From positions 62,001-126,000 of the forward strand of contig NZ_JAFR01000008.1 of NCBI RefSeq assembly GCF_000526235.1: a DNA stretch of 64,000 bases. Direction: 5' to 3'. Position numbers and translations under genes: made by a program. The notes under the pieces are model-generated. The model was not told the origin of the DNA. It saw nothing but the letters and a program-made list of their open reading frames with translations, and made no database searches. Positions 10,295 to 24,342 of this stretch are shown piece by piece. The stretch is from Acholeplasma granularum ATCC 19168 (GTDB taxonomy: Bacteria > Bacillota_I > Bacilli_A > Acholeplasmatales > Acholeplasmataceae). Numbering within the stretch: position 1 is the stretch's first letter; every line of letters begins with the position of its first letter.

Positions 10295-11077
10295 CTAAAT
10301 TATCAATATTATGTAGGTTACAATAGATATTGTAAGAACCATTATGAAGTTGACTGTGTTATTATTTACAAATTTGTTACCAGAGATTAGAATATGCTGT
10401 CCTTTGTTAGATATAAATTCAATAATTTTTCCACTTTTTAAATCCTTATATTTGGCTTGTAAGAATATACCTAAATAACTATCTAATAAACTTCCTAAAA
10501 AACCAGCTATTGATATAATAATTAAGAATTCAGAAAATAGAAATATATTAAAACTATTTTCTATAAAATAAAGCAAGTTAAATAATAAGGCGACTGCAAT
10601 TGCTCCAAATAATGAAGAAATTGTACCAGTTAAACTAACCGCTCCAGATAAACCTTTTTCCATTTTTTTAAATGTTAAAATAGAAAATGTTTTTCCCTTA
10701 CTCATAGCTCCTATTTCCGATGCCCATGTATCTGCTGTTGATGCTGCAATTGCTACAACTGAGACAATCAAATACGGAAGTTCATCTAGATAATAGTATA
10801 GTATTAAAAAGGTTAAAGATACCACAGAGTTTGAGATGACTTGTATAAAATTTCTACCATTTTTTTCTTTATCATCTTTATTAAATTTGGTAATAATGCT
10901 AGAACTAAAAAAGAAGAATATGAGTACAGACCAAACAACATAAGAACCGAACATAAAAAACAATGTTCCAATAATTGTAGCTGATAAAAACCCACTTAAT
11001 GTTAGTGATTTTTTAATGTATGCTGTTATTGTAATTAAGAAACTTAGTGCAAACCCTATGATGCCTAGTACTAACAT
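10295..11077 (-). CDS. DUF92 membrane protein, VTE6-like (putative prenyl-phosphate kinase)
   Basis: This is a 260-residue, six- to seven-helix membrane protein of the DUF92/TIGR00297 family. The family signature is clear: AASTADTWASEIGAMSKG, followed by KGLSGAVSLTGT. The plant and cyanobacterial members (VTE6) phosphorylate phytyl phosphate to phytyl diphosphate. It is the last gene of the carotenoid operon, 17 bp after the phytoene synthase gene, and a VTE5-like kinase gene lies on the other side of the desaturase. I infer a role in making prenyl diphosphate for the synthase. Substrate and chain length cannot be read from the sequence. Confidence 0.8.
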   Translation of the reverse strand: MLVLGIIGFALSFLITITAYIKKSLTLSGFLSATIIGTLFFMFGSYVVWSVLIFFFFSSSIITKFNKDDKEKNGRNFIQVISNSVVSLTFLILYYYLDELPYLIVSVVAIAASTADTWASEIGAMSKGKTFSILTFKKMEKGLSGAVSLTGTISSLFGAIAVALLFNLLYFIENSFNIFLFSEFLIIISIAGFLGSLLDSYLGIFLQAKYKDLKSGKIIEFISNKGQHILISGNKFVNNNTVNFIMVLTISIVTYIILII

Positions 11078-11094: not shown

Positions 11095-11952
11095 TTATAG
11101 TAATGTTTTGATTATTTCTTTTTTTGTTTCATCTGAAACTATACTTCTAATGGAAAACACTTGATAGTTATTCATTCGTATACTATCTAAAATTGCTTCA
11201 TAAAATTTTGATGCAAGCAGGAGTGGTTTTCTAGCATCTACTTTAAATAAGTCTATTTGATCTATTGCACTTTGGTATTTATCATGTGCATACAAAGCAA
11301 GATATTCCACCGTATTAATAAAGTTTTCATTTACAACTTCATTATATAAATCATCTTTTGAATAATTAAACTTATTCATTACATCCTTAGGTAGGTAGAT
11401 TCTATTTCTTTTCTTATCTTCACCAATATCTCTTAAAATATTAGTAATTTGCATCGCCTCACCTAAATTAATAGCAACCCTATTTATTTTATCAACATCT
11501 TTTTTTTCTGCAAGTATATAGCCCAACATTTCACCAACAACACCGGCAACTTTATAACAATAATCTAAAAGTTCATTTAGTGTATTTGGCTGTGTAAAGC
11601 GGTAATCCATTTCTTGACCTATGATAAGTTCATAATATGGTTTAAAATCATATTTTATAGGGTAATAGGTTTTAATGACTTCATTTAGACTTCTAAATAT
11701 GAAGTCATCAGGAATGTTTCCGTTTTTTAATGCACTAAGTTTTCTTTCATAACTTTTTAATAAATCTAAGTCTTTATATTCATCAATCGAATCATCGACA
11801 ACTCTACAGTAAGCATAAATTGCATAGATTGCATATCGGTCTGCCTTACTTTTTAATGTACTAAATGCTTTATAAAATGTCTTTGAGTTGTCCTTTATGA
11901 TTTGTTCACAGAGTTTAAATTCTTTTATTTGTTCTTTAGTAAGCTTTTGCAT
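11095..11952 (-). CDS. crtB: Phytoene/dehydrosqualene synthase
   Basis: The product is 285 residues, the normal length for the family. It joins two prenyl diphosphates head to head to give the carotenoid backbone. Both metal-binding motifs are present: DDSIDE at residues 53-58 and NILRDIGED at 171-179. Its ATG shares a base with the desaturase stop codon, so the two are translationally coupled. Whether it uses geranylgeranyl (C40, crtB) or farnesyl diphosphate (C30, crtM) cannot be decided by eye. No prenyl diphosphate synthase gene lies in the window. Confidence 0.93.
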   Translation of the reverse strand: MQKLTKEQIKEFKLCEQIIKDNSKTFYKAFSTLKSKADRYAIYAIYAYCRVVDDSIDEYKDLDLLKSYERKLSALKNGNIPDDFIFRSLNEVIKTYYPIKYDFKPYYELIIGQEMDYRFTQPNTLNELLDYCYKVAGVVGEMLGYILAEKKDVDKINRVAINLGEAMQITNILRDIGEDKKRNRIYLPKDVMNKFNYSKDDLYNEVVNENFINTVEYLALYAHDKYQSAIDQIDLFKVDARKPLLLASKFYEAILDSIRMNNYQVFSIRSIVSDETKKEIIKTLL

Positions 11953-13439
11953 TATTTTAAATCCTTATGAAGTTCATTTACAGCCAGTTTTGCACTATTT
12001 AAAACAATTGGTACTCCTGCTCCCGGATGATTACTGCTTCCAGCTGAATATAAATTATTTAAGAATTTAAATTTGTTTTGAGGACGATAATAATTACTTT
12101 GTAAAAGGGTTGGACGTAATCCAAAAGTTGCTCCAAACTGAAGGTTAAACTGTGTTTCAAAATCATTAGGCGTATAAACTTTTAGGTATTCAATATTATC
12201 CTTAATATCTTTAAAGACCTCATGGTAAGACATCATATCTAAAATTTTGTCTGTATATGCTTTTGTTTGTTTTTCATCCCATTTTTCAGGGCTATCTGAT
12301 TTATTTGGTACAGGCACTAAAACATATAATGACTCTTTACCTTCAGGTGCCATTGAACTATCAATACGACTTGGTGCATAAACATAGTATGATGGATCAT
12401 CCGGTGTTTTACCATCAAAAATATCATTAATGTTTCCATTAAAATCATTTGTAAAAAAGAATGTATGAGGTTTGAGATTATAACGTTTTTTAGTTCCAAT
12501 ATAAAGGATAAATGAAGATGATGAATAAAGCATTTTATCAATCTTTTTAGGGGTGTATTTACCTTTGTTTTTGTTATCTTTAATCAAATTATTCATAGCC
12601 CACGGGAAATCTACATTTGATAATACTGCATCATAGTTTTCAGATATTTTTCCATTAACTTTAATGGCTTTAATATTTTTATTTTCTATAATAAATTCTT
12701 CAACATTTTGATTTAATAGTATTTTCCCACCCATTTCTAAAAATCTTTTTTCCATAGCTTTGGCCATACTATACATCCCACCTTTAATATAATAAACGCC
12801 ATATAAAAGTTCAATCATTGGAATGATTGTATAAATAGATGGCCCATTATAAGGTGATATTCCTATATATAATGTTTGAAACGCTAGTGATTGTCTTAAT
12901 TTTTCATTTTTTACATATTTTGAAATGGATTTATATGCCGAACTTAATGTTTTAAGTTTAAGTCCTTGATATAACATTTTAGGATTATAAAATTCACTTG
13001 GTTTTCTAAAACTTCGATCTATAAAATGATTTTTAGCGACTAAATATCTTTTATATACTTCTGCTAAGTATGCCATATAACCCTGAGCATCTTCTTCACT
13101 AACTTGTTCGTTTTCTAAAGTCATACGTACTAAGTCATTGGATGCTGTAAGTGTTGTGCGATCTCTATATTGAATTTCAAACATTGGATCTATTCTTAAC
13201 ATTTCAATATAGTCTTTATAATCAGCACCACTTACTTCAAATATTTCTTGATAAAGTTTAGGCATCATCACAATAGTTGGACCTACATCAAATGTAAATC
13301 CATTTTCTTTAATTTGATTCATACGGCCGCCTATTTTATCATTTTTTTCATAAATGGTGACATCATAACCTAAACTTTTTAATCTAATTGCAGATGCTAG
13401 TCCTGCTGTACCTGCACCAATAACTGCTACTTTTTTCAT
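11952..13439 (-). CDS. crtI: Carotenoid desaturase (phytoene/diapophytoene desaturase)
   Basis: This 495-residue FAD-dependent desaturase begins with the dinucleotide-binding fold GAGTAGL (8-14) followed by YEKNDKIGGRM. It ends with the CrtI/CrtN family motif SAGSSNHPGAGVPIVLNSAK, which is part of the FAD site. It introduces conjugated double bases into the product of the adjacent synthase, giving coloured carotenoid. It sits between the VTE5-like gene (15-bp gap) and crtB (1-base overlap). CrtN, the C30 enzyme of Gram-positive bacteria, is an equally good name. Confidence 0.93.
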   Translation of the reverse strand: MKKVAVIGAGTAGLASAIRLKSLGYDVTIYEKNDKIGGRMNQIKENGFTFDVGPTIVMMPKLYQEIFEVSGADYKDYIEMLRIDPMFEIQYRDRTTLTASNDLVRMTLENEQVSEEDAQGYMAYLAEVYKRYLVAKNHFIDRSFRKPSEFYNPKMLYQGLKLKTLSSAYKSISKYVKNEKLRQSLAFQTLYIGISPYNGPSIYTIIPMIELLYGVYYIKGGMYSMAKAMEKRFLEMGGKILLNQNVEEFIIENKNIKAIKVNGKISENYDAVLSNVDFPWAMNNLIKDNKNKGKYTPKKIDKMLYSSSSFILYIGTKKRYNLKPHTFFFTNDFNGNINDIFDGKTPDDPSYYVYAPSRIDSSMAPEGKESLYVLVPVPNKSDSPEKWDEKQTKAYTDKILDMMSYHEVFKDIKDNIEYLKVYTPNDFETQFNLQFGATFGLRPTLLQSNYYRPQNKFKFLNNLYSAGSSNHPGAGVPIVLNSAKLAVNELHKDLK

Positions 13440-13454
13440 ATTATAAATCTCCTT

Positions 13455-14117
13455 TTAAATAACCAGAATTAATAGATAATAAATAAGTGATGCACCAAGT
13501 GGTAGCGTTAAATTATCTAATCCCTTAGGTGTAATATATTCTATTATTGTTGATATAAAAGCAATCACAAGTGCCATATAAATATGGTTTAATCCTTCAC
13601 TAAAATTTATTATTATAGCTGCAACCACTAATGATGATACAAACATAGTAATGCTTCCAATAAGTGATTTACCATTACCAATTTCTTTCTTACCATATTT
13701 TTTTCCAATTACAGCAGCTAAACCATCCCCATAGCCCATAATTAAAATACCCATTAGCCCAATCATGGTATTTTCTACAAATACGATTGAAAAAATAACT
13801 AGTATTAATAATGATATTGGAAAATATACAGTTCCTAAATTACCTTTTCCACTGCGTTCCATGGATTTAATTAGGTTCATTTTATATGATAAGTAATTTA
13901 ATGCAACAAATGATATTGGTGGTATTAAAGTCCACCATATATCATTTTTGTCTTGCATAAATATAAGTACTAGAAAATACCAATTAGAGACACCTATATG
14001 TATAAATTTTCTACTTGCCTCATCACCTAATATGTTTTTCTTTTGAAGAATTGTTGAAATACCTATAATGATTCCAATGAATGCATATGAACTAAGTAAG
14101 TAATATAATATGTGCAT
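13455..14117 (-). CDS. VTE5-like phytol/dolichol kinase family membrane protein
   Basis: This 220-residue protein has about six to seven transmembrane helices. The CTP-transferase/kinase signature of the phytol kinase, dolichol kinase and CDP-diglyceride synthetase superfamily is visible as GYGDGLAAVIGKKYGKKE followed by GKSLIGSITMF. The N-terminal motif SRKFIHIG is typical of VTE5/DGK1-like proteins rather than CdsA. Such enzymes phosphorylate isoprenoid alcohols. It lies directly upstream of crtI in the same operon, with a DUF92 protein at the other end, so phosphorylation of a prenol for carotenoid synthesis is my favoured role. A lipid kinase role is the alternative. Confidence 0.78.
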   Translation of the reverse strand: MHILYYLLSSYAFIGIIIGISTILQKKNILGDEASRKFIHIGVSNWYFLVLIFMQDKNDIWWTLIPPISFVALNYLSYKMNLIKSMERSGKGNLGTVYFPISLLILVIFSIVFVENTMIGLMGILIMGYGDGLAAVIGKKYGKKEIGNGKSLIGSITMFVSSLVVAAIIINFSEGLNHIYMALVIAFISTIIEYITPKGLDNLTLPLGASLIYYLLILVI

Positions 14118-14132
14118 AATTTCTTTCCTTTT

Positions 14133-14807
14133 TTACGTTCTTTGAGTTAAGATACCATCAACAATAACATAAACCTTATCACAATACTCCAGTAATCTTT
14201 CATCATGGGTGACCATGATGGTTGCCTTTTTTTGTTCCTTAGTTTCTTTAGCTAAAAGTTTTACAACTTCATATGCTTTATTCGTATCTAAGCTTGCTGT
14301 TGGTTCATCTGCAAATATCACGTTTGGGTTATGATATAGTGCTTTTGCAATTGCTGATCTTTGGCGTTCTCCACCTGAAAGTTCATTTGGATACTTATTC
14401 TTTAATTTATCTACACCTAGTTTTACAAATAATTCATCCATCCAAGCTTGGTTTGGTTTTGTCTTTGTAATATTATTGTATAAAACCATTTGCTCTTTTA
14501 CTGTTAAAAATGGAATAAGGTTTGATGCTTGTAAGATAAAACCTATTTCATTTAATCTAATCTTTGATTTTTGATTGTTATCTAATTCAGAAAATGGTTT
14601 ACCATTAATTAAAACTTTACCTGTTGTGGGTTTTTGAAGACCACCTAAAATCGTTAAAAATGTAGATTTACCACTACCAGATGGTCCAATAATAGCAATA
14701 AGTTCACCTTCATAAGCTGTAAAGTTAGTTTGTTTTAATGCACGAATAACATTATCACCTTGTAAAAAATCTTTTGATACGTTGATCATTTCAATAACTG
14801 GTTTCAT
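14133..14807 (-). CDS. ABC ATPase, LolD/MacB type
   Basis: The protein is about 224 residues. It has Walker A GPSGSGKST, signature LSGGERQRSAIAKAL, Walker B VIFADEPTASLD and the switch His in MVTHDERLLE. A longer reading from a TTG at 14822 overlaps the ribosome-binding site GGAGG, so I choose the ATG at 14807, eight bases after it. The adjacent permease ends four bases upstream. The pair resembles export- or lipid-linked MacB/LolCDE transporters. It lies between the peroxidase and the carotenoid genes in one unbroken run. Confidence 0.92.
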   Translation of the reverse strand: MKPVIEMINVSKDFLQGDNVIRALKQTNFTAYEGELIAIIGPSGSGKSTFLTILGGLQKPTTGKVLINGKPFSELDNNQKSKIRLNEIGFILQASNLIPFLTVKEQMVLYNNITKTKPNQAWMDELFVKLGVDKLKNKYPNELSGGERQRSAIAKALYHNPNVIFADEPTASLDTNKAYEVVKLLAKETKEQKKATIMVTHDERLLEYCDKVYVIVDGILTQRT

Positions 14808-14811
14808 ATAA

Positions 14812-15882
14812 TTAACCTCCAATTGCTTTTAGTGGATCGATTTTTAGTACAGCCTTCACTGAGAATAATGCACCTAAAAATGCAAATAAGAAGAATGCTA
14901 ATGTAATCACACCATAAAATAATATATTTGTTGCAAAAGGTATAATATCTGATAAGAATATACCACTAATAATTGTAAGTCCAAGGCCTAATACAATACC
15001 TATAAGTACTAATAAGAATGTTTGTACAACTACAGAACTTGCAATATAAAAATTTGAAATACCTTGCGCTTTCATTACACCAAACATTGGTGTTTTTTGA
15101 ATGGTTAAAACATAAATAAAGATACCTAAAACAAATGCAACAATAATAATTAAAAATATAATCATTGTTGAAAAGGTAAGTACTTGTGCTGTATAACCTG
15201 GTAGTGTAGAAATATAATTATCTGTTGTGTAAACTAATAATTTATCAGATACACTTTCTGTAGTACCCCTTACAATTACACCACTAAATAAATCTGGTGC
15301 ATTTTCTGAGTTATATCTATATTTTTGCCATGTAGCCATTTCCATATAAATAACTGGTGCCGTTTGATAGGTTGTTTTTGAAGTGAACCCTATAATTTTA
15401 AATTGTGTGTCCGTACCTGATACACCAAGCATGTCACCAACCTTATAACCTTCTTTTTTAAGTTCTTCATCTACAACAACATCATTACCTTCAATAACTA
15501 AATCTTTTACCTCTTCTGGAATAAGAAAACTACCTTCATCTATTCCAAAAAAATAAACATTCACTCTCGTATCTAATATATTTGTTGATAAAGGATTATT
15601 AATTACTGCCGGAAATAGTCCAATTCTAGCTTTTGTACCATCAACAACAACTTGATCATAATCACTATTTGTCATAAATGACATCATTATAGAGTCATTT
15701 GCATCGACAGTCATGACAATTTCATTTGAATCCCATTTATTAACTGCATTGGTATATGATGAGGCTAATCCATATGCAAGTGATGTTAGAAAATATACTA
15801 GGTAACTAATTAATACAATAACTGAAATTATAAGTGCAAATTTACCCTTAGTATACTTAAGTTCTTTAATTGCTAAAAACAT
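14812..15882 (-). CDS. FtsX/MacB-type ABC permease
   Basis: The product is 356 residues, with one helix at the N-terminus (about 15-40), an extracytoplasmic domain of about 190 residues, and three helices at the C-terminus. This is the standard FtsX/LolC fold. The last helix is followed by ALFSVKAVLKIDPLKAIGG, the normal end of this family. It pairs with the ATPase immediately downstream. The substrate is unknown. Membrane lipid, carotenoid or peptide are possibilities given the context. Confidence 0.87.
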   Translation of the reverse strand: MFLAIKELKYTKGKFALIISVIVLISYLVYFLTSLAYGLASSYTNAVNKWDSNEIVMTVDANDSIMMSFMTNSDYDQVVVDGTKARIGLFPAVINNPLSTNILDTRVNVYFFGIDEGSFLIPEEVKDLVIEGNDVVVDEELKKEGYKVGDMLGVSGTDTQFKIIGFTSKTTYQTAPVIYMEMATWQKYRYNSENAPDLFSGVIVRGTTESVSDKLLVYTTDNYISTLPGYTAQVLTFSTMIIFLIIIVAFVLGIFIYVLTIQKTPMFGVMKAQGISNFYIASSVVVQTFLLVLIGIVLGLGLTIISGIFLSDIIPFATNILFYGVITLAFFLFAFLGALFSVKAVLKIDPLKAIGG

Positions 15883-15899: not shown

Positions 15900-16382
15900 T
15901 TATTTGTTATTATTAAGTAATTTTTCAATATCTTTTGCTATTTTTTCTGGTTTAACCATCGGTGCATAGCGTCTAATAACTTTTCCATTTTGATCGACTA
16001 AAAACTTAGTAAAGTTCCATTTAATTTTTTGATTAAATAATCCTTTTTCATGACGTTTTAAATAAGTAAATAAGATAGATTCATCATCCCCATTTACCTC
16101 AACTTTTTTAAAACGTTTAAACTCTGTTTGATAGTTTTTTACACAGAATTCATTAATTTCATCAATTGTGCCTTTAGCATCTTTAAAATTGTTACTTGGA
16201 AAATCTAGTATTTCAAAGCCCTTTTCTTTATATTTATTATATAAATCTTGTAGACCCTCATACTGTGGTGTAAAAAAACATGTGGTTGCTGTATTGACAA
16301 TTAATAGTACTTTTCCCTTATAGGAAGATAACTCAACGATATTACTATCAATATCTTCAACTCTAATTTGATATAAACTCAT
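15900..16382 (-). CDS. Glutathione peroxidase family (thioredoxin-type) peroxidase
   Basis: The product is 160 residues, normal for the family. The peroxidatic Cys35 sits in NTATTCFFTPQYEGL, the Trp of the active site is W122 (KWNFTKF), and Cys80 in EFCVKNY sits where thioredoxin-dependent members carry the resolving Cys. The motif that normally reads FPCNQF is FPSNNF (61-66), so the catalytic Gln is replaced by Asn65. It should reduce lipid or organic peroxides with thioredoxin. It is the first gene of the operon that continues into the ABC transporter and carotenoid genes, with AAAGGA upstream of the ATG. Confidence 0.9.
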   Translation of the reverse strand: MSLYQIRVEDIDSNIVELSSYKGKVLLIVNTATTCFFTPQYEGLQDLYNKYKEKGFEILDFPSNNFKDAKGTIDEINEFCVKNYQTEFKRFKKVEVNGDDESILFTYLKRHEKGLFNQKIKWNFTKFLVDQNGKVIRRYAPMVKPEKIAKDIEKLLNNNK

Positions 16383-16472: not shown

Positions 16473-17201
16473 TTGATTTCAATTGCTCTTTGCGATAATG
16501 AAGATAAATACTTAAATCATTATGAATCTAAAATTAAATCATCTGCAAAAGAATTAAACTTAATGGTTGAAATCATTCGTTTTAATAGTGGTGAATCACT
16601 TCTTTTTTACTTAGAAGATCATCCAAATAAATTTGATATCATTTACTTAGATATTATGATGGGTAGAATAAACGGTATAGAAACTGCTTTAAGTATTAGA
16701 AAGTTTAATCAAGATTCTAAAATAATATTTTTAACTAGTTCTAGGGATTTTGTATATCACGCATTTGATGCAAATGCTACAAACTATCTAATTAAAGACT
16801 TACATGATACAAAGTTTGATTTAGTTTTTAAACAAACATTAAACTCTTTAAATAAATTTAAATCTAGAAACGTATTTTCCATAGAAACACCTAAAGAACA
16901 AATTATCATACCACTAGATGAAATTATATATTTCGAGAGCTTCAAAAGGTTAGTTATTTGTCATATCAATCAAAAACCAAGTATTGAGTACTACTATAAA
17001 ATCAGTGATGTAACAAAAACTTTAGAGGATAAAAGTTTTGTATTAATACATCGTTCTTTTTTAGTTAATATGCAATTTATAGCCAAACTAACAAGTTCAG
17101 AAGTTGTATTAAAAAACGGAGTTGTTTTACCTATTTCACGAAATAAATATGATGATGTAAAATCTTTATTTATCAAATATTTAAATGGGATGAAATTATG
17201 A
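16473..17201 (+). CDS. LytTR-family response regulator (AgrA/ComE-like)
   Basis: The product is 242 residues: a receiver domain (1-125) with the acidic pocket at LCDNED and phospho-acceptor D60 in YLDIMMG, then a LytTR DNA-binding domain (about 135-235) with the typical EIIYFES and VLIHRSFLVN. The start is a TTG, preceded by GGGG eight bases away. A TATAAT lies at 16430-16435. The kinase gene follows after 22 bp. It runs against the surrounding minus-strand genes, divergently from the peroxidase operon, which is a plausible target. That target is inference. Confidence 0.9.
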   Translation: MISIALCDNEDKYLNHYESKIKSSAKELNLMVEIIRFNSGESLLFYLEDHPNKFDIIYLDIMMGRINGIETALSIRKFNQDSKIIFLTSSRDFVYHAFDANATNYLIKDLHDTKFDLVFKQTLNSLNKFKSRNVFSIETPKEQIIIPLDEIIYFESFKRLVICHINQKPSIEYYYKISDVTKTLEDKSFVLIHRSFLVNMQFIAKLTSSEVVLKNGVVLPISRNKYDDVKSLFIKYLNGMKL

Positions 17202-17223
17202 TGATGTCTTAATAGGGGGATTT

Positions 17224-18555
17224 ATGATTTATTTACATCTGTTATATGCATGTATTGCTGCAACAATTTATTCATATTTTTATATTAGAATTTACTCCAA
17301 GTTTTTTGATTTAAGAAAGTATTATTACTTGGGTTTTTTAATATTTCTAGTTACAATTTTTATTCAATTTATGACAATTAGTGTCTTAGGCATGACAATT
17401 GGATATATTGCTCTACTTTCTTTTATTACATATCCAATTGCTTTATCTATGATTTATCGTACAAATATTTTTAATATTGTCTTTTTATCATTAAATGCAA
17501 TTCTTACAATTTATGTTGCTTTTATATTTTTTGCTGCAATTTATGCTTCTATCCATCAAGTTCAGTTTACGATCACATGGATTTATGTATCAAACTATTA
17601 TCATCTATCGCAAGCTCACGCTTACTTAAGTTCTTTATTATTACTTATCTTTTTTGATAAATTTATATTGTCTGATAAATTGAAGGATTTTTTCTTACTT
17701 AGAAGAAACTTAATATTAATCATAGGCATTCAAACAATATTGATTATTAATATGATTTGGATAAGTGTTTCAAGAGAAAACTTACCTTTTAGTTGGTATA
17801 ACACAGTATTAATTTTAATTGCTTTTAGTGTTTACGGAATTTATGTAATGCTTAGATTATTCACAGCTAATTCTACATATTTTAGTGTCTTTAAAACACA
17901 TACGGAAACTCTTAAAAAACAATTAAATTTTCAAATAGAACATTACAAAAACTATGAAATGCAAACTCAAGAATATTTAAAATTTAGACATGATTATGAA
18001 AAAATTCTAAAAGGTATTACAACTTTGCTTGATCTTAATGATTATGAAGGTGTCAAACAACTTATTAAAGATTCCAATGATGAGTTTGATTCTATATCTT
18101 TTACTTACAAGAAATATTCTAATAACTTAATTATTGATGCACTACTTAATGATTATCAAAAACGGTTTAACAAAATTGGTGCAATATTCGATTCTAAAGT
18201 TTATATTCACTTGGATCAGGAGTTTTCTGATATTAACCTTATAAAACTATTTTACAATATATTAGAGAATAGTTATGAATCTTTAATAAAAGTTGATGAT
18301 GCTAATATGCGTATTATGAAAATCGAAAGTGAATTAATAGATCGATATATTAAAATAAGTTTTATTAACAGTATGAACATTAAGTTTTATGATGATTCAA
18401 CAAGAACATCTAAATCTGATAAACTTCGACATGGATTCGGTAAAGCAATTATTGATAATATTCTTTCATCCATTGATGGTTTTTCAAATAGATTCATTAC
18501 TGAGGAAAATAATATCAGTTTTTATAATTTAGAAATATTTATCCCAATAAGTTAA
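17224..18555 (+). CDS. AgrC-like sensor histidine kinase, GHKL family
   Basis: The product is 443 residues with about six transmembrane helices in the first 225. The phospho-acceptor is H256 in the FRHDY motif typical of AgrC/HPK10 kinases. A GHKL ATPase domain follows, with the N-box IKLFYNILENSYES and the G-box KLRHGFGKAIIDN. It is paired with the LytTR regulator just upstream. No AgrB or AgrD homologue is visible nearby, so the input is unknown. It converges on the DUF1295 gene with only five bases between. Confidence 0.9.
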   Translation: MIYLHLLYACIAATIYSYFYIRIYSKFFDLRKYYYLGFLIFLVTIFIQFMTISVLGMTIGYIALLSFITYPIALSMIYRTNIFNIVFLSLNAILTIYVAFIFFAAIYASIHQVQFTITWIYVSNYYHLSQAHAYLSSLLLLIFFDKFILSDKLKDFFLLRRNLILIIGIQTILIINMIWISVSRENLPFSWYNTVLILIAFSVYGIYVMLRLFTANSTYFSVFKTHTETLKKQLNFQIEHYKNYEMQTQEYLKFRHDYEKILKGITTLLDLNDYEGVKQLIKDSNDEFDSISFTYKKYSNNLIIDALLNDYQKRFNKIGAIFDSKVYIHLDQEFSDINLIKLFYNILENSYESLIKVDDANMRIMKIESELIDRYIKISFINSMNIKFYDDSTRTSKSDKLRHGFGKAIIDNILSSIDGFSNRFITEENNISFYNLEIFIPIS

Positions 18556-18560
18556 TTTGA

Positions 18561-19343
18561 TTATTTTTTAGGTGGTAATGGAAAGAAAATTGAGGTTTTG
18601 GATTTATATACTTGATAGTTTGGATCATCCTTATATCTTTTTTCAAGTAGTGGTATCCCTGATACTTTTACAAGTAAGAATGTAATAATAATTGGGCTTA
18701 GTAACCCTAAAAGACCAATAAGATTTAATGTAGATACCGCTAATAGACCTATACCCCACCAAATCATAGACTCTCCAAAATAGTTAGGATGACGTGAATA
18801 CTTCCAAACATTTGATTGCATTATTTGACCCTTATTCTTAGGGTCTTTTTTAAATCTTTGGAGTGAATGGTCGGCAAGTACTTCAAAGATGAATCCTAAT
18901 AAAAAGACAACTATCCCAACACTTATTAAACTTATATTAATTATATTTAAAGTAGATTCTGGGTTTAGGTTCGTTAAAATAATTGGAAGTGCAATAACAA
19001 AATTAATAATAGATTGCATAAAGAATATATAAAAATATGATTTAACTTTAATACTTGTTTTCCATCTAATTTTCATATTTGTATATCTGTAATCTTCTTT
19101 TTTATTAAAATTTCTTACAAATAAATACATACTTAATCTAAGTCCCCAAATTGTAGTTAATATTGTAATAATTATGCCTATAACAGAGTAATGAGCTCCA
19201 ATAATTAGGGATGATATCGCACTAATGACAATACCTAGTCCCCATGCGATATCAACTAGTCCATTATTATTTTTAACTTGAGCTACAATATACCATAGTG
19301 TAAAGAATGCTAATGATATTAAATAAATATATAAAAATTCCAT
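18561..19343 (-). CDS. DUF1295 membrane protein (steroid-5-alpha-reductase-like fold)
   Basis: The product is 260 residues with about six to seven helices. The family signature is near the C-terminus: KYSRHPNYFGESMIWWGIGL, shared with steroid reductases and isoprenylcysteine methyltransferases, where it binds the nicotinamide or methyl-donor cofactor. Its exact reaction is unknown, and a lipid-modifying role is likely. It lies three bases after the FakA-DegV fusion in a three-gene run that starts with DUF2177. DUF1295 and DUF2177 genes recur near photolyase genes in other bacteria, to my recollection. Confidence 0.85.
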   Translation of the reverse strand: MEFLYIYLISLAFFTLWYIVAQVKNNNGLVDIAWGLGIVISAISSLIIGAHYSVIGIIITILTTIWGLRLSMYLFVRNFNKKEDYRYTNMKIRWKTSIKVKSYFYIFFMQSIINFVIALPIILTNLNPESTLNIINISLISVGIVVFLLGFIFEVLADHSLQRFKKDPKNKGQIMQSNVWKYSRHPNYFGESMIWWGIGLLAVSTLNLIGLLGLLSPIIITFLLVKVSGIPLLEKRYKDDPNYQVYKSKTSIFFPLPPKK

Positions 19344-19346
19344 AAA

Positions 19347-21122
19347 TTAATCCTTTCTTATGTAAGCAATACCTACAGATCCTTTTCCTGAGTTCATGGC
19401 TATAATTGTTGAAATATCAGACATGTACTCTGGTTTAAATCCCGTGATATCAATTACTTTTGTTTTTATTTTTTCAGCTAATTTTAAATTATCTAAATGC
19501 ACAAGCGCATATTTTTCAATACCGTGTGATTGGTGAATCTTTTTGATGTATTTAACAATTTTATTTATATTATTCTTTTGACCTATTGATTTTGATAGAA
19601 CAATTCCGTTACCTTCACTATCTATAGAAACAATCGGTTTAAGGTGTAGTATTTTTCCTATTTTTCCTAAACTTTTTTTAATTCTACCGCTTCTTACCAT
19701 TAAATCTAGTGTTTCTACGTGAACCAATATTTTAGTTTTATTTGTTAATTCTATTGCTTTTTTTTCTATTTGATTAAAGTCCATACCTGAATCAATTAGT
19801 TCTGCAATTTTCATGACTAATAACCCTTGAGATACACTGTTTTGTTTTGTATCTATAACTTTAATTTGAGTATCTAAAAAGCTATTAGCAATTTTATTAA
19901 ATATATTGTATGTACCACTCATTTTTCCAGAAACTGTAAGTACTAATATGTGCTTATAGTGTTTAGCTAATGTAGCTAATAAAACTTCAACAGATTTGGG
20001 ATTTGGTGCAAATGATTTTGGGTATGTTTTTGAATTTAGGATATATTTGAAAAATTGTTCATTATGTATGGTAAGTTTGTCATAAAATATGACATCATCA
20101 ATATTAATACCTACAGGATATACATGGATTTGGTAGTGATCAATAATTTCTTTAGGTATATCTGCAATTGAGTCTGTAACGATTGCAATCTTATATTTAG
20201 GTTTTAACTGTATTTGTTGTTGCCTTAACATGTCATCAACTTTAGATTCTAATATTTGACCTAGACTTGATAGTTCATATAATACTTTTTCTGGATGATT
20301 TGTATGTATATGAATTCTTTTTAATCTTTTTGATTCACCTACTACGACTGAATCACCTAAGTTTGAAATGATTTTGGTAAGTACATCTTTACTTATTGTT
20401 GTTTGAAGTAAAACCTCTGTACAATATCTTGTGTTATCATTATGGATATGTTCTTCTTTAAAACTAAGTGTAGGTAGATCAACCTTGAATTCTTGGGCAA
20501 CTATTTTATTTTCACCTATTAATCCTTCAATAAATCCTTCTACAAATAATGTAAATCCTAATGCACCAGCATCAACAACGTTGTGTTTTTTTAGGATATC
20601 TAATGTATTTTTAGTTTCTTCTAGTGCAATTTTTAGCTTTTGACTTGTTGCTAGTAAATAAGCCTTTATTGAGTCATGATTCTCTTTTTCGATTAGTAGA
20701 TATTCAAGCCATTGGCGCATTAAAGTAATCATTGTTCCTTCTAATGGATTTTCTAGTGCCTCATATGCATATGAGACACCTGATTTTACTCGTTCAATTA
20801 ATTTAATATCATTTGATTTTTTATCATCTTCTAATAGTGTAAATCCATAAAGAAATTGTGAGAATATTAATCCTGAATTACCTCTAGAACCTAATAGTGC
20901 AGCCTCTGATACAGATTCTAGTGTTTCACTGATTGAATTTCCTTTTTTTGTGAGTTCAATAATTGATGACATAAGCGCTGATAAATTACTTCCTGTGTCC
21001 TTATCTCTTACAGGAAACACATTTAATTCATTTAATGTTTCTTTATGTTTTATAACTGATTTTGCTGCAGTAATAATTGCTTGATACAATTGCTCATTTT
21101 CTAGTAATATTTGATCTGTCAT
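19347..21122 (-). CDS. Fused fatty acid kinase: DAK2 (FakA-like) plus DegV (FakB-like)
   Basis: This is a 591-residue two-part protein. Residues 1-200 are a DAK2/DhaL kinase domain with the metal- and ATP-binding motif VRDKDTGSN (38-46) and LLGSRGNSGLIFSQFL. Residues about 200-305 match the FakA middle domain, with the metal-binding Cys in RYCTE and the His pair in IHIHTNHP. Residues about 310-591 are a DegV/FakB lipid-binding domain, from KIAIVTDSIADIP to the conserved VRSGRIKK. In Firmicutes FakB holds a fatty acid while FakA phosphorylates it for phospholipid synthesis. Here both are on one chain. The four-base overlap with the DUF2177 gene indicates coupled translation. Confidence 0.9.
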   Translation of the reverse strand: MTDQILLENEQLYQAIITAAKSVIKHKETLNELNVFPVRDKDTGSNLSALMSSIIELTKKGNSISETLESVSEAALLGSRGNSGLIFSQFLYGFTLLEDDKKSNDIKLIERVKSGVSYAYEALENPLEGTMITLMRQWLEYLLIEKENHDSIKAYLLATSQKLKIALEETKNTLDILKKHNVVDAGALGFTLFVEGFIEGLIGENKIVAQEFKVDLPTLSFKEEHIHNDNTRYCTEVLLQTTISKDVLTKIISNLGDSVVVGESKRLKRIHIHTNHPEKVLYELSSLGQILESKVDDMLRQQQIQLKPKYKIAIVTDSIADIPKEIIDHYQIHVYPVGINIDDVIFYDKLTIHNEQFFKYILNSKTYPKSFAPNPKSVEVLLATLAKHYKHILVLTVSGKMSGTYNIFNKIANSFLDTQIKVIDTKQNSVSQGLLVMKIAELIDSGMDFNQIEKKAIELTNKTKILVHVETLDLMVRSGRIKKSLGKIGKILHLKPIVSIDSEGNGIVLSKSIGQKNNINKIVKYIKKIHQSHGIEKYALVHLDNLKLAEKIKTKVIDITGFKPEYMSDISTIIAMNSGKGSVGIAYIRKD

Positions 21123-21523
21123 TTAAGATACCTCCGATAGATTAAATAGGTTAATGTTGATGTAAGACTTGTAAGTAACATTCCCCACATAATGTCAATA
21201 ATTACAATAGTTAGTGGAAAACCAGCCAGTGTAATATAGTTGGTTAAATCATAGGTTGAGTATGTTACTAAGCCAAATAATGCACTTAATATAACTACTT
21301 TATAAATACTTTGTTGATCTATCATTGGTTTTATTACAAATATGAAGAGCCCTATTATAAATATCATGTAAAATAAAATTATTGGTATGATAGGAAAATC
21401 TGTTTTCATTAAACTTCCTAATTCATTTTGATAAAGACTTTTAGCAATAAGTCCTAACCAAAGTCCATCGATTACTGCAAATATTAATGCTGAAATTAGT
21501 ATTGTAATTATATTTTTTTTCAT
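21119..21523 (-). CDS. DUF2177 membrane protein
   Basis: This four-helix membrane protein of about 134 residues belongs to the DUF2177 family. Family landmarks are VIDGLWLGLIAKSLY near the N-terminus, TYSTYDLTNYITLAGFP in the middle, and DIMWGMLLTSLT. A GTG-started reading from 21532 would use part of the ribosome site AAAGGTG, so the ATG at 21523 is the likely start. It overlaps the kinase fusion gene by four bases. Its molecular function is not known. Confidence 0.82.
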   Translation of the reverse strand: MKKNIITILISALIFAVIDGLWLGLIAKSLYQNELGSLMKTDFPIIPIILFYMIFIIGLFIFVIKPMIDQQSIYKVVILSALFGLVTYSTYDLTNYITLAGFPLTIVIIDIMWGMLLTSLTSTLTYLIYRRYLK

Positions 21524-21636
21524 ATTTATCACCTTTTTATTTACAACATTATTATATTTTATTAATTTTTCTATTTTTTTATGATGTAACCAAATGTTAG
21601 ATTTTAGTAATCAAATGTCATAAAACTTTAGCTTAA

Positions 21637-21687: not shown

Positions 21688-23064
21688 TTATAAATTATTT
21701 ACGTAATCTACATAAGTTTCCATATCAAATTTTCTTTTTAATCCTGCTTCATTCATATATCTTAATGTACCAAATATACTTCTTTCTTGCCATGGTCTAT
21801 CGTGTCTACCAAAACACCAAGCAATATTACTATATGAATTTGGATTTCTACCATCTATGAAGTATTTGTTATTTAAATATACGATGATTTCATAGGCACT
21901 TTCCATAGAACTTGACCATTCCATGATTTTTTTTGCCCAATACATTCTTAAATAATTAGCCATAAAACCAGTTATGATAGCTTCTTTCATGGCACTGTTA
22001 AAGTAAATATCATGTGTCTTTGCTGATTCAATTTCTTCTAAGGTGTAGATGTAGTCTCTTAAATCTTCTTTATGCGCATTCATTGTAATATATGCCCATT
22101 TTTCTGTTATATGATTAAAATCATCATAATTAGGATTGTATGTTACAAAGTTATATGCAAGCTCACGTCTAACTATTAATTGTTCAATAAAGGCTTCTGA
22201 TTCTTCTTTATAGGTATGAAAATTAGGATGCTTAAATAGTTTTTTTAAGATATCTTGAACTGAAATTTGTCCAAATTGTAGATACATCGATACATATGAT
22301 TGGATATGAAGTGATGCATCGGATCTATCTTTATATTTAGGTAATAAATTATCTAAAAAATCATTTAGATGTTTAATTGCCTCAACATAGCCACCTTTAA
22401 ATTTGAAATATGGTTTTACATTTAAGTCTATGTTAAGTTTTTGTATGATTGAGTCTATATTTTGTATATCTACATCACTTTTGAAGTTAAGTTTTTGAAT
22501 GTTTTCTAGGTTGTTTGAATATTTAAAATCAATGTACTCAAAAAACTTTTTATGTACTGATGGCCTAATAGCATATGCAGCATAGGCTAGTTTGGGATAA
22601 AGTGATTCTACCGGAATTAATACATCTGATTCGATTTGATATATGTTTAATTTAGGATTGTTTCTTTGACATAGTTCATATATTTTGTTTCTCATTTGAA
22701 GTTGTGGTTTTAAATAAGCTCTATCTGTTATGAGTGTATGTGCATTTTGAATCAGTGGTTTTAATGTATCTTCCACATGACCTAGTTTTATAATAAATTC
22801 TATATTTCTTTTTATAAAGTCAGATTGTAAGTTTTTTAATCCTTCTAACATAAAATGATAATGTCTTAAGTTAGCATCTGGATAGTTTAAAACGATATTA
22901 AATACAACAATTAGAGGAAGTTTTTTATCATTAGCTATATGAATTGCATATTCTAGTGCATGATTATAATACATACGCATAGATTGTTGCATCCAGTAGA
23001 GTATGTATTGACCTTCATTATCTTCTTGATTTGAATTTATGATTTTTATACGGTCTTTATGCAT
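21688..23064 (-). CDS. phr: Class II CPD photolyase
   Basis: This 458-residue flavoprotein uses light to split cyclobutane pyrimidine dimers. Class II features are YILYWMQQSMR near the N-terminus, a middle section SLHIQSYVSMYLQFGQIS, and the FAD-binding C-terminal half with RRELAYNF, DGRNPNSYSNIAWCFG and RHDRPWQERSIFGTLRYM. The length is normal. It is the last gene of the run asnS - acyltransferase - phr, 12 bp after the acyltransferase, and is followed by a terminator. A heliorhodopsin remnant lies 5.2 kb upstream. Confidence 0.93.
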   Translation of the reverse strand: MHKDRIKIINSNQEDNEGQYILYWMQQSMRMYYNHALEYAIHIANDKKLPLIVVFNIVLNYPDANLRHYHFMLEGLKNLQSDFIKRNIEFIIKLGHVEDTLKPLIQNAHTLITDRAYLKPQLQMRNKIYELCQRNNPKLNIYQIESDVLIPVESLYPKLAYAAYAIRPSVHKKFFEYIDFKYSNNLENIQKLNFKSDVDIQNIDSIIQKLNIDLNVKPYFKFKGGYVEAIKHLNDFLDNLLPKYKDRSDASLHIQSYVSMYLQFGQISVQDILKKLFKHPNFHTYKEESEAFIEQLIVRRELAYNFVTYNPNYDDFNHITEKWAYITMNAHKEDLRDYIYTLEEIESAKTHDIYFNSAMKEAIITGFMANYLRMYWAKKIMEWSSSMESAYEIIVYLNNKYFIDGRNPNSYSNIAWCFGRHDRPWQERSIFGTLRYMNEAGLKRKFDMETYVDYVNNL

Positions 23065-23076
23065 AAGTATTCTTCT

Positions 23077-24342
23077 TTATGTTATATTTTTTGATTGTTT
23101 GGATAATTTATATGCTTCTTCAACAGCAAATCTTATTTTTGTAACTACATCTTTTTTATTATTTGGATAAATATAGTAGGTATCATTATCGGTTGATAAA
23201 ACCACAGCAGCAGCCCTTTTTTTATCACTTCTTTTATATCCAAATTCTATATGTATCGTATATAAAGAACTTGACTCTCTAAATAAATTAAGAGGTCCTT
23301 CGATGTCGTTACCAGTTAATTTAATACCTTCTTTTGTATGTATTAAATTACCTTTACCTAATGGAATAAATCCTTTAGCATTTCTTAATGATTCGATCAT
23401 TACTTCATCTTCAAAGTAGTATGTGTCGTTTAATAATTGTTCTTTTGTAAATTGTCTTTGAAATTCGTACCAATCTGGTACATGATCATAAATTGTTTTT
23501 CCATTAAGGTTATTAAGTTTGCCATAGATTGATAGTTCATGTGCTGTATGACATTTTAAGCATGTGATTGTCGCACCCTTAGCCTCCATTTGGTGTTCAG
23601 TTAAGCAATTTGGACATTGATAGAGTATACGGTTTAATCCATGTGCTCTATTTTTATCTTTAATTGCTATTTTATTATCAAATTGGTATTGCCATTCATC
23701 ATATTCAAATGCTTTATTTACTCTACTTTTAATTTCATCTAATGTAATAGTTTCTAAATCTATTTTAGTAATTATTTGAGTCATATCTGCTGTTAATGGT
23801 ATTTTTCTTAATTTTGGCATCATATAGTTTGGTTGTGTTAAAAAGTTTCCGTGCATATTTAATACAACTACAGGATGATTAAATAGTTTAATAGCTTTAT
23901 GTAGTGAATCTGGAAGTGCTGAGTTTGTTCCAGAAATTGAATATGCACTTTCAGCATAGATTGTAGTAATTAGTTTAAGTTGATCTAAACTATATTTAAT
24001 GTTTCTATATAACATTTTATCTTGTGGTGTGAATTTTCTTTTTCCGATACCACCTACATTTCTAAGTAACCATTCTTTACCAATAAACCCATCAATTGCA
24101 ACAACATATGTTGCTTTATGAGGAAATATAGCACGTGTTTGAACTTTAAAATCTATAAATGCATGATGTGTACATAAAAGTAAATATGGTGGTTTTAATC
24201 CATCCATATTTACTTTATTCACTTTTAATTTTCTATAATAAGTTGTTGGTAGTGAAAGTATCCATTTAATAGGGGTTAGAAACCATTTTTCTTTGACTGG
24301 CTTTTTTTGCATATCAAATGGTTTAGTATTTATCTTCTTCAT
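23077..24342 (-). CDS. PlsC-like acyltransferase with zinc ribbon
   Basis: The product is 421 residues. Residues about 30-210 form a glycerophosphate-acyltransferase-type domain: LLLCTHHAFIDF carries the catalytic H(X4)D motif, and YAESAYSISGTN and VVVLNMHGNF correspond to the acceptor-binding motifs. Around residues 235-270 there is a CxxC...CxxC zinc ribbon (CPNC and CLKC). The C-terminal 150 residues are of unknown fold. It probably acylates a lysophosphatidate-type lipid at the inner membrane face. It lies between asnS (17-bp gap) and phr (12-bp gap), in the same transcription unit. Confidence 0.82.
   Translation of the reverse strand: MKKINTKPFDMQKKPVKEKWFLTPIKWILSLPTTYYRKLKVNKVNMDGLKPPYLLLCTHHAFIDFKVQTRAIFPHKATYVVAIDGFIGKEWLLRNVGGIGKRKFTPQDKMLYRNIKYSLDQLKLITTIYAESAYSISGTNSALPDSLHKAIKLFNHPVVVLNMHGNFLTQPNYMMPKLRKIPLTADMTQIITKIDLETITLDEIKSRVNKAFEYDEWQYQFDNKIAIKDKNRAHGLNRILYQCPNCLTEHQMEAKGATITCLKCHTAHELSIYGKLNNLNGKTIYDHVPDWYEFQRQFTKEQLLNDTYYFEDEVMIESLRNAKGFIPLGKGNLIHTKEGIKLTGNDIEGPLNLFRESSSLYTIHIEFGYKRSDKKRAAAVVLSTDNDTYYIYPNNKKDVVTKIRFAVEEAYKLSKQSKNIT

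Follow-up and report, generated by a model that had tools for sequence, protein, structure and literature searches.

The window, a 64,000-nucleotide stretch of the Acholeplasma granularum ATCC 19168 genome (contig NZ_JAFR01000008.1), contains one unbroken open reading frame of 591 amino acids with an ATG start, in which Pfam matches above the gathering cut-offs were obtained for Dak2 (E = 4.5e-25), FakA-like_M (E = 1e-18) and DegV (E = 1e-61, profile positions 1-279 of 280). These domains in an intact frame bear out the original prediction of a Dak2 kinase domain and a FakA middle domain followed by a complete DegV domain in place of the FakA C-terminus. The same prediction had placed the gene with DUF1295 and DUF2177, and both were confirmed as its flanking genes (Pfam E = 3.4e-72 and 2.4e-40, respectively; Table 1). 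FakA-like_C also matched residues 354-558 (E = 5.5e-12), with DegV the better match by about 160 bits. FakA_C is described as a relative of FakB that docks FakB (PMC9136124).

Table 1. Location of the fused gene and of neighbouring features in the window.
Feature	Position	Strand	Remarks
Phytoene/squalene synthase and CrtI-type phytoene desaturase (carotenoid genes)	11095..13439	-	
ABC ATPase and FtsX-type permease	14133..15882	-	
Glutathione peroxidase family protein	15900..16382	-	
LytTR response regulator (16473-17201) and GHKL histidine kinase (17224-18555)	16473..18555	+	Convergent with the operon
DUF1295 protein, steroid 5-alpha-reductase/ICMT fold	18561..19343	-	Starts 3 bases past the fusion stop
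Fused FakA(N+L)-FakB protein	19347..21122	-	Dak2 kinase 38-198, FakA middle domain 232-303, DegV/FakB 311-589
DUF2177 small protein (membrane protein by family name)	21119..21532	-	4-base overlap (ATGA) with the fusion start; same operon
Direct repeat ACATTTGATTAC-N9-ACATTTGGTTAC, 21-base period	21586..21618	-	Just upstream of the operon; candidate LytTR site
Photolyase, phr2-like, below NCBIfam cut-off	21688..23064	-	Upstream of the operon, same strand; hairpin and T-run after the photolyase

The fused protein scored under the curated cut-offs of YloV/TIGR03599 (canonical FakA; 242 bits, cut-off 396), of the FakA model NF038248 (154 bits, cut-off 975) and of the FakB1 equivalog NF038249 (104 bits, cut-off 350), and over that of TIGR00762 (DegV/EDD domain; 223 bits, cut-off 99.7). 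Its likeness to canonical FakA lies in the N-terminal 300 residues, which align with TIGR03599; canonical FakA ends in FakA_C, however, and the fused protein in DegV, and the two are largely separate in the tree described below. The fused architecture is, we presume, very likely listed in domain databases already. A single FakA-FakB/DegV chain was not found in the available text of the open-access literature, including PMC9136124, PMC12594616, PMC10138225, PMC10146087, PMC13400652 and PMC12288450, and an earlier mention elsewhere is possible; the last of these states just that DegV is present in some multidomain proteins.

The model of the fused protein had a pLDDT of 86.7 and a pTM of 0.82, and its top Foldseek match was the S. 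suis FakA-FakB2 complex. The kinase part superimposed on S. aureus FakA_N (8vip; Z = 30.2, rmsd 2.1, 206 residues) and the DegV part on the DegV/FakB structure 2dt8 (Z = 35.6, rmsd 1.8, 277 residues). The sole long low-confidence stretch, residues 205-228, forms the linker between kinase and middle domain, and the corresponding stretch of S. aureus FakA is reported to be flexible (PMC9136124).

In S. aureus FakA, Asn32, Asp38, Asp40, Thr41, Asn82 and Asp185 are given as the ATP-Mg residues, and Cys240, His282 and His284 as those of catalysis (PMC9136124). Their equivalents, mapped by motif or alignment, are N34, D40, D42, T43, N82 and D184 at the nucleotide/metal site and C234, H271 and H273 in the middle domain. 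All were invariant in the 28 aligned fusions, and the same positions were invariant in 40 fusions from other phyla, except for the Cys, which was present in at least 90%. The residues named for FakB1 are Thr62, Ser95, His270, Arg173 and Arg205 (PMC8892158). The counterparts of Ser95 (S402) and Arg173 (R480) were kept in 28/28 Mollicutes-side and 40/40 other-phylum fusions. At the His270 position, Asn (16), Ser (7) or His (5) was found among the 28 Mollicutes-side fusions, compared with His in 26/26 stand-alone DegVs (the 7 clear proteins of the own genome and 19 high-ranking matches from relatives); His270 was kept in 27 of the 40 other-phylum fusions, 3 being gapped there. The Thr62 position is Thr or Ser, with Ser in 19 of the 28 Mollicutes-side fusions. 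The window protein has Ser and Asn in the Thr62-His270 carboxylate network, so that the network expected of Fak was not found. It is therefore classed as a diverged fused variant that would work like Fak and not as a proven member, and its ligand or head-group handling may differ.

Arg205, said to be central to FakA binding and to contact with the membrane (PMC8892158), was missing in 65/66 fusions. Because most of the sampled stand-alone DegVs (19/26) also lack it, its loss is not specific to the fusion, and the idea that it is a signature of cis tethering was dropped. Like the two-protein FakA and FakB of S. aureus and S. suis (7w7h), the fused protein has the Dak2 ATP site, the Cys-His-His middle domain and a DegV domain with Ser95 and Arg173; it differs from them in being one chain, in lacking the FakA_C docking domain and Arg205, and in the replacement of His270 in most Mollicutes-side members.

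Dak2, FakA-like_M and DegV were all detected by Pfam in 66/66 homologues, 26 from the Mollicutes side and 40 from other phyla, the latter being the scanned part of the 47 top loci (L103-L149). The gene was full length and in a single frame in 16 of the 61 genomes of the relatives set (own genome included), so the fusion is not an assembly artefact; in one genome (G017) the match was cut near a contig end. Broken copies, still lying between DUF2177 and DUF1295, were found in G024 (L054, 7621-9410) and G030 (L055, 7942-8762), which suggests recent loss of the fused gene in some relatives. Scanning genome contigs with the window protein gave at least 80 loci, and among the best 80 the match ran through the DegV end in many phyla, including Bacillota (Vagococcus, Enterococcus, Acidaminobacter), Bacteroidota, Aminicenantes, Marinimicrobia, Calditrichota, Spirochaetota, Lysobacteraceae and others.

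Quick trees were made for each half. The kinase-half tree (116 rows, 71 fused and 45 canonical) had 2 label changes versus about 36 in shuffles, and the DegV-half tree (105 rows, 71 fused and 34 stand-alone) had 3 versus about 29, with some deep fused rows falling among separate ones. Both trees keep fused and separate proteins largely apart, and a recent local fusion was therefore rejected. A single origin of the fusion is compatible with the trees, though they do not establish it.

A search of the own genome for separate fakA and degV genes found both: a canonical FakA at C9:90898-91803 (574-amino-acid frame), and seven clear stand-alone DegVs plus one weak match. Here, as in the sampled Bacillota, the fused gene is an extra, encoding an accessory kinase beside canonical FakA. 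The original prediction had the fatty acid delivered in cis, in place of separate, exchangeable FakBs. The first part stands insofar as a FakA-type kinase and a FakB share one chain, which is the sole set found in most of the 12 non-Bacillota genomes considered below; the replacement of exchangeable FakBs does not, as FakA and seven DegVs are also present. The fusion had further been said to suit an organism that takes fatty acids from its host, a view that was not upheld. PlsY, PlsX and a FabF-type ketoacyl synthase are present, so that dependence on host lipids is unsupported, though not fully excluded, and fused homologues occur in lineages that are not known to scavenge from hosts, such as Marinimicrobia and Lysobacter. 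The neighbourhood of the gene points to light or oxidative stress rather than to host scavenging.

In the 18 genomes behind fused loci, canonical full-length FakA was found in 6/6 Bacillota and 0/12 non-Bacillota, and DegV outside the fusion in only 2 of the 12; some are drafts or MAGs of unstated completeness, so that any one absence is weak, but the pattern is consistent. With no canonical FakA found in 12/12 and no non-fused DegV in 10/12, both functions would there fall to the fused chain. The plsY gene lay within four genes of the fusion in 13 of 44 other-phylum loci (3 of the 47 had no called fusion ORF), adjacent and on the same strand in 10, and near canonical FakA in 0/33 loci. PF02660 was confirmed in all 7 of the 13 plsY neighbours that were scanned. 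Two loci (L107 and L118) have the gene order FakAB - DUF1295 - 248/251-amino-acid protein - plsY, the third protein of L107 being AhpC/TSA-like. Because PlsY uses acyl-phosphate, which FakA/B can supply in vitro (PMC13400652), this linkage is the best functional evidence obtained. Lipocalin-like proteins (PF08212) also adjoin the fused kinase in other phyla (L109, 5391-5936; L123, 2820-3365).

Co-occurrence was counted in 392 genomes of the phylum, which contained the fusion (25), DUF2177 (31 over cut-off), DUF1295 (84 over cut-off) and photolyase (32). DUF2177 was present in 25/25 fusion genomes versus 6/367 others, DUF1295 in 25/25 versus 59/367, and photolyase in 22/25 versus 10/367; Fisher p values for these counts are too small, because the genomes are related and not independent. 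Within the family of the window (26 genomes), DUF2177 was found in 11/11 genomes with the fusion versus 1/15 without. Among 29 Mollicutes-side fusion loci with flanks, at least 23 had DUF2177, at least 19 DUF1295 and at least 12 photolyase within four genes, these being lower bounds since several loci stop at contig ends. Photolyase was equally close in 1 of the 44 other-phylum fused loci. The surroundings of the cassette otherwise vary between genera. Six genomes have DUF2177 without the fusion. DUF2177 and DUF1295 are adjacent in three of these with no gene between (G001, G112 and G257), and in G259 the order is DUF2177 - DUF1295 - stand-alone DegV, a hint that there an unfused FakB-type protein can fill the role. 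In one genome lacking the fusion, DUF2177 adjoins a glycerophosphodiester phosphodiesterase gene (L189, 7525-8484), another lipid-turnover link.

The fold of the DUF1295 protein is that of 5-alpha-steroid reductase/ICMT, matching PbSRD5A (7c83; Z = 16.0, 205 residues, rmsd 3.1) and 5v7p (Z = 12.5, 169 residues, rmsd 3.6), and its sequence weakly matches steroid 5-alpha-reductase 2 (E = 1.2e-4). The fold is shared with this superfamily, but identity is 17%, and the protein may be a reductase or a methyltransferase. DUF2177 gave no match to solved structures by sequence. The earlier suggestion that the neighbours are lipid-related is supported by the DUF1295 fold and by the adjacent plsY in other phyla.

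Heliorhodopsin (PF18761) adjoins the fusion in L077 (6743-7543) and DUF1295-DUF2177-photolyase in L186 (8088-8879). DUF2177 is among the frequent neighbours of heliorhodopsins (PMC11109279), which have been argued to act against light-induced oxidative stress (PMC8612252). In Chlamydomonas, induction of the genes for DUF2177, DUF1295, DUF1365 and cyclopropane synthase by singlet oxygen depends on SAK1 (PMC4067076, Table 5). Light and oxidation are likewise suggested by the carotenoid genes, the glutathione peroxidase and the photolyase of the window. Gene association, together with this one distant alga, suggests that the cassette is a light- or oxidation-linked membrane-lipid module that may help to repair or remodel membranes. 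In Enterococcus sp. MJM12 (L112), a permease 42% identical to the FtsX-type permease of the window follows the cassette.

The direct repeat in front of the operon has no mismatches, with 0.01 such repeats expected in shuffles allowing up to 3 mismatches. LytTR regulators usually bind direct repeats of this kind, and the repeat is a candidate site for the neighbouring LytTR regulator. Looser repeats precede DUF2177 in three congeners, at L038, L040 and L039, the three of eight scanned loci that also carry the LytTR/GHKL pair; in the other five (L041, L185, L043, L046 and L052) a repeat before DUF2177 was not found. A promoter scan of the operon region gave no more sites than shuffles.

Taken as a putative self-contained, single-chain fatty acid kinase, the fused protein is well supported by its architecture, catalytic residues, predicted fold, the lack of separate partners in other lineages and the plsY linkage; its kinase activity, ligand and cis transfer we infer. 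The C-terminal FakB domain would take a fatty acid from the membrane and offer it to the ATP site at the N-terminus, either within one chain or between the chains of a dimer. The Cys-His-His middle domain would complete that site, and the product would be an acyl-phosphate for PlsY (or PlsX). Tethering would replace the docking given by FakA_C in the two-protein system. FakA_NL without FakA_C was reported active when given 10 uM FakB (PMC9136124), so keeping FakB close may make FakA_C unnecessary. Under light or oxidative stress, the fused kinase, DUF2177 and the reductase-like DUF1295 would jointly handle or recycle the acyl chains of the membrane. The best explanation, which we regard as probable, is a self-contained fatty acid kinase, accessory in the Bacillota sampled, in a light- or oxidation-linked lipid cassette.

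The fused DegV could instead be a diverged docking domain and not a substrate carrier, making the protein an alternative FakA that serves separate FakBs. FakA_C is itself FakB-related and docks FakB (PMC9136124), the fused DegV is altered at His270 and Thr62, and the own genome offers seven clear stand-alone DegVs. We nevertheless consider such a role improbable, given that Ser95 of the fatty-acid site and the catalytic Arg173 are invariant (28/28 and 40/40), that 10 of the 12 non-Bacillota genomes yielded no further DegV for it to serve, and that the DegV profile is some 160 bits ahead of FakA_C.

Alternatively, the protein may be a redundant fatty acid kinase of the ordinary sort, without any particular tie to stress, and its cassette a matter of old operon history. 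This would agree with the other phyla, in which the fusion is the only kinase found and is linked to plsY and not to photolyase. The near-perfect co-occurrence with DUF2177, seen also within one family (11/11 vs 1/15) and in differing surroundings, and the candidate regulator site that precedes the operon make it unlikely, however. The substrate might also be a special acid (oxidised, branched, isoprenoid or carotenoid-derived) made or removed by DUF1295, and not an ordinary fatty acid of host or membrane. The steroid-reductase-like fold of DUF1295, the changed head-group residues of the fused DegV and the carotenoid genes in the same window all favour such a substrate, but the plsY linkage suggests ordinary acyl chains in other phyla, and we hold the special acid to be doubtful.

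Returning to the self-contained kinase in its lipid cassette, what would set it apart, judged by gene association, is the partnership with DUF2177 and DUF1295. We tentatively propose, as a possibility somewhat short of an even chance, that DUF2177-fusion-DUF1295 is a light- or singlet-oxygen-responsive lipid pathway, in which DUF1295 would reduce or modify an acyl chain, whether light-damaged or protective, and the kinase would return the free acid to phospholipid as acyl-phosphate. If true, this would be the first mechanism for two widespread families of unknown function that also belong to the singlet-oxygen response of an alga. The tight pairing of the fused kinase with DUF2177 and DUF1295 makes the two families a testable lipid pathway. 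Fatty acid kinases in the available text of the literature surveyed are two-protein systems of Gram-positive bacteria. In several other phyla a one-chain kinase was the only form found. Such a kinase would carry the activation of free fatty acids to acyl-phosphate far outside Bacillota, and it would give a simple enzyme for catalytic work.

Further genes of the window were noted around the cassette. A DUF92 protein (10295-11077) and a 220-amino-acid protein with no Pfam match (13455-14117) lie around the carotenoid genes. A 421-amino-acid protein with no family match (23077-24342) has an HHxxxD-like motif and C-x2-C pairs. Its assignment as a PlsC-like acyltransferase, suggested by the motif as seen by eye, was rejected for want of support from Pfam, NCBIfam or the PDB. 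A neighbour of the same length in L185 is unrelated to it (20% identity), and its counterpart in L039 (70% identity) lies directly upstream of DUF2177.
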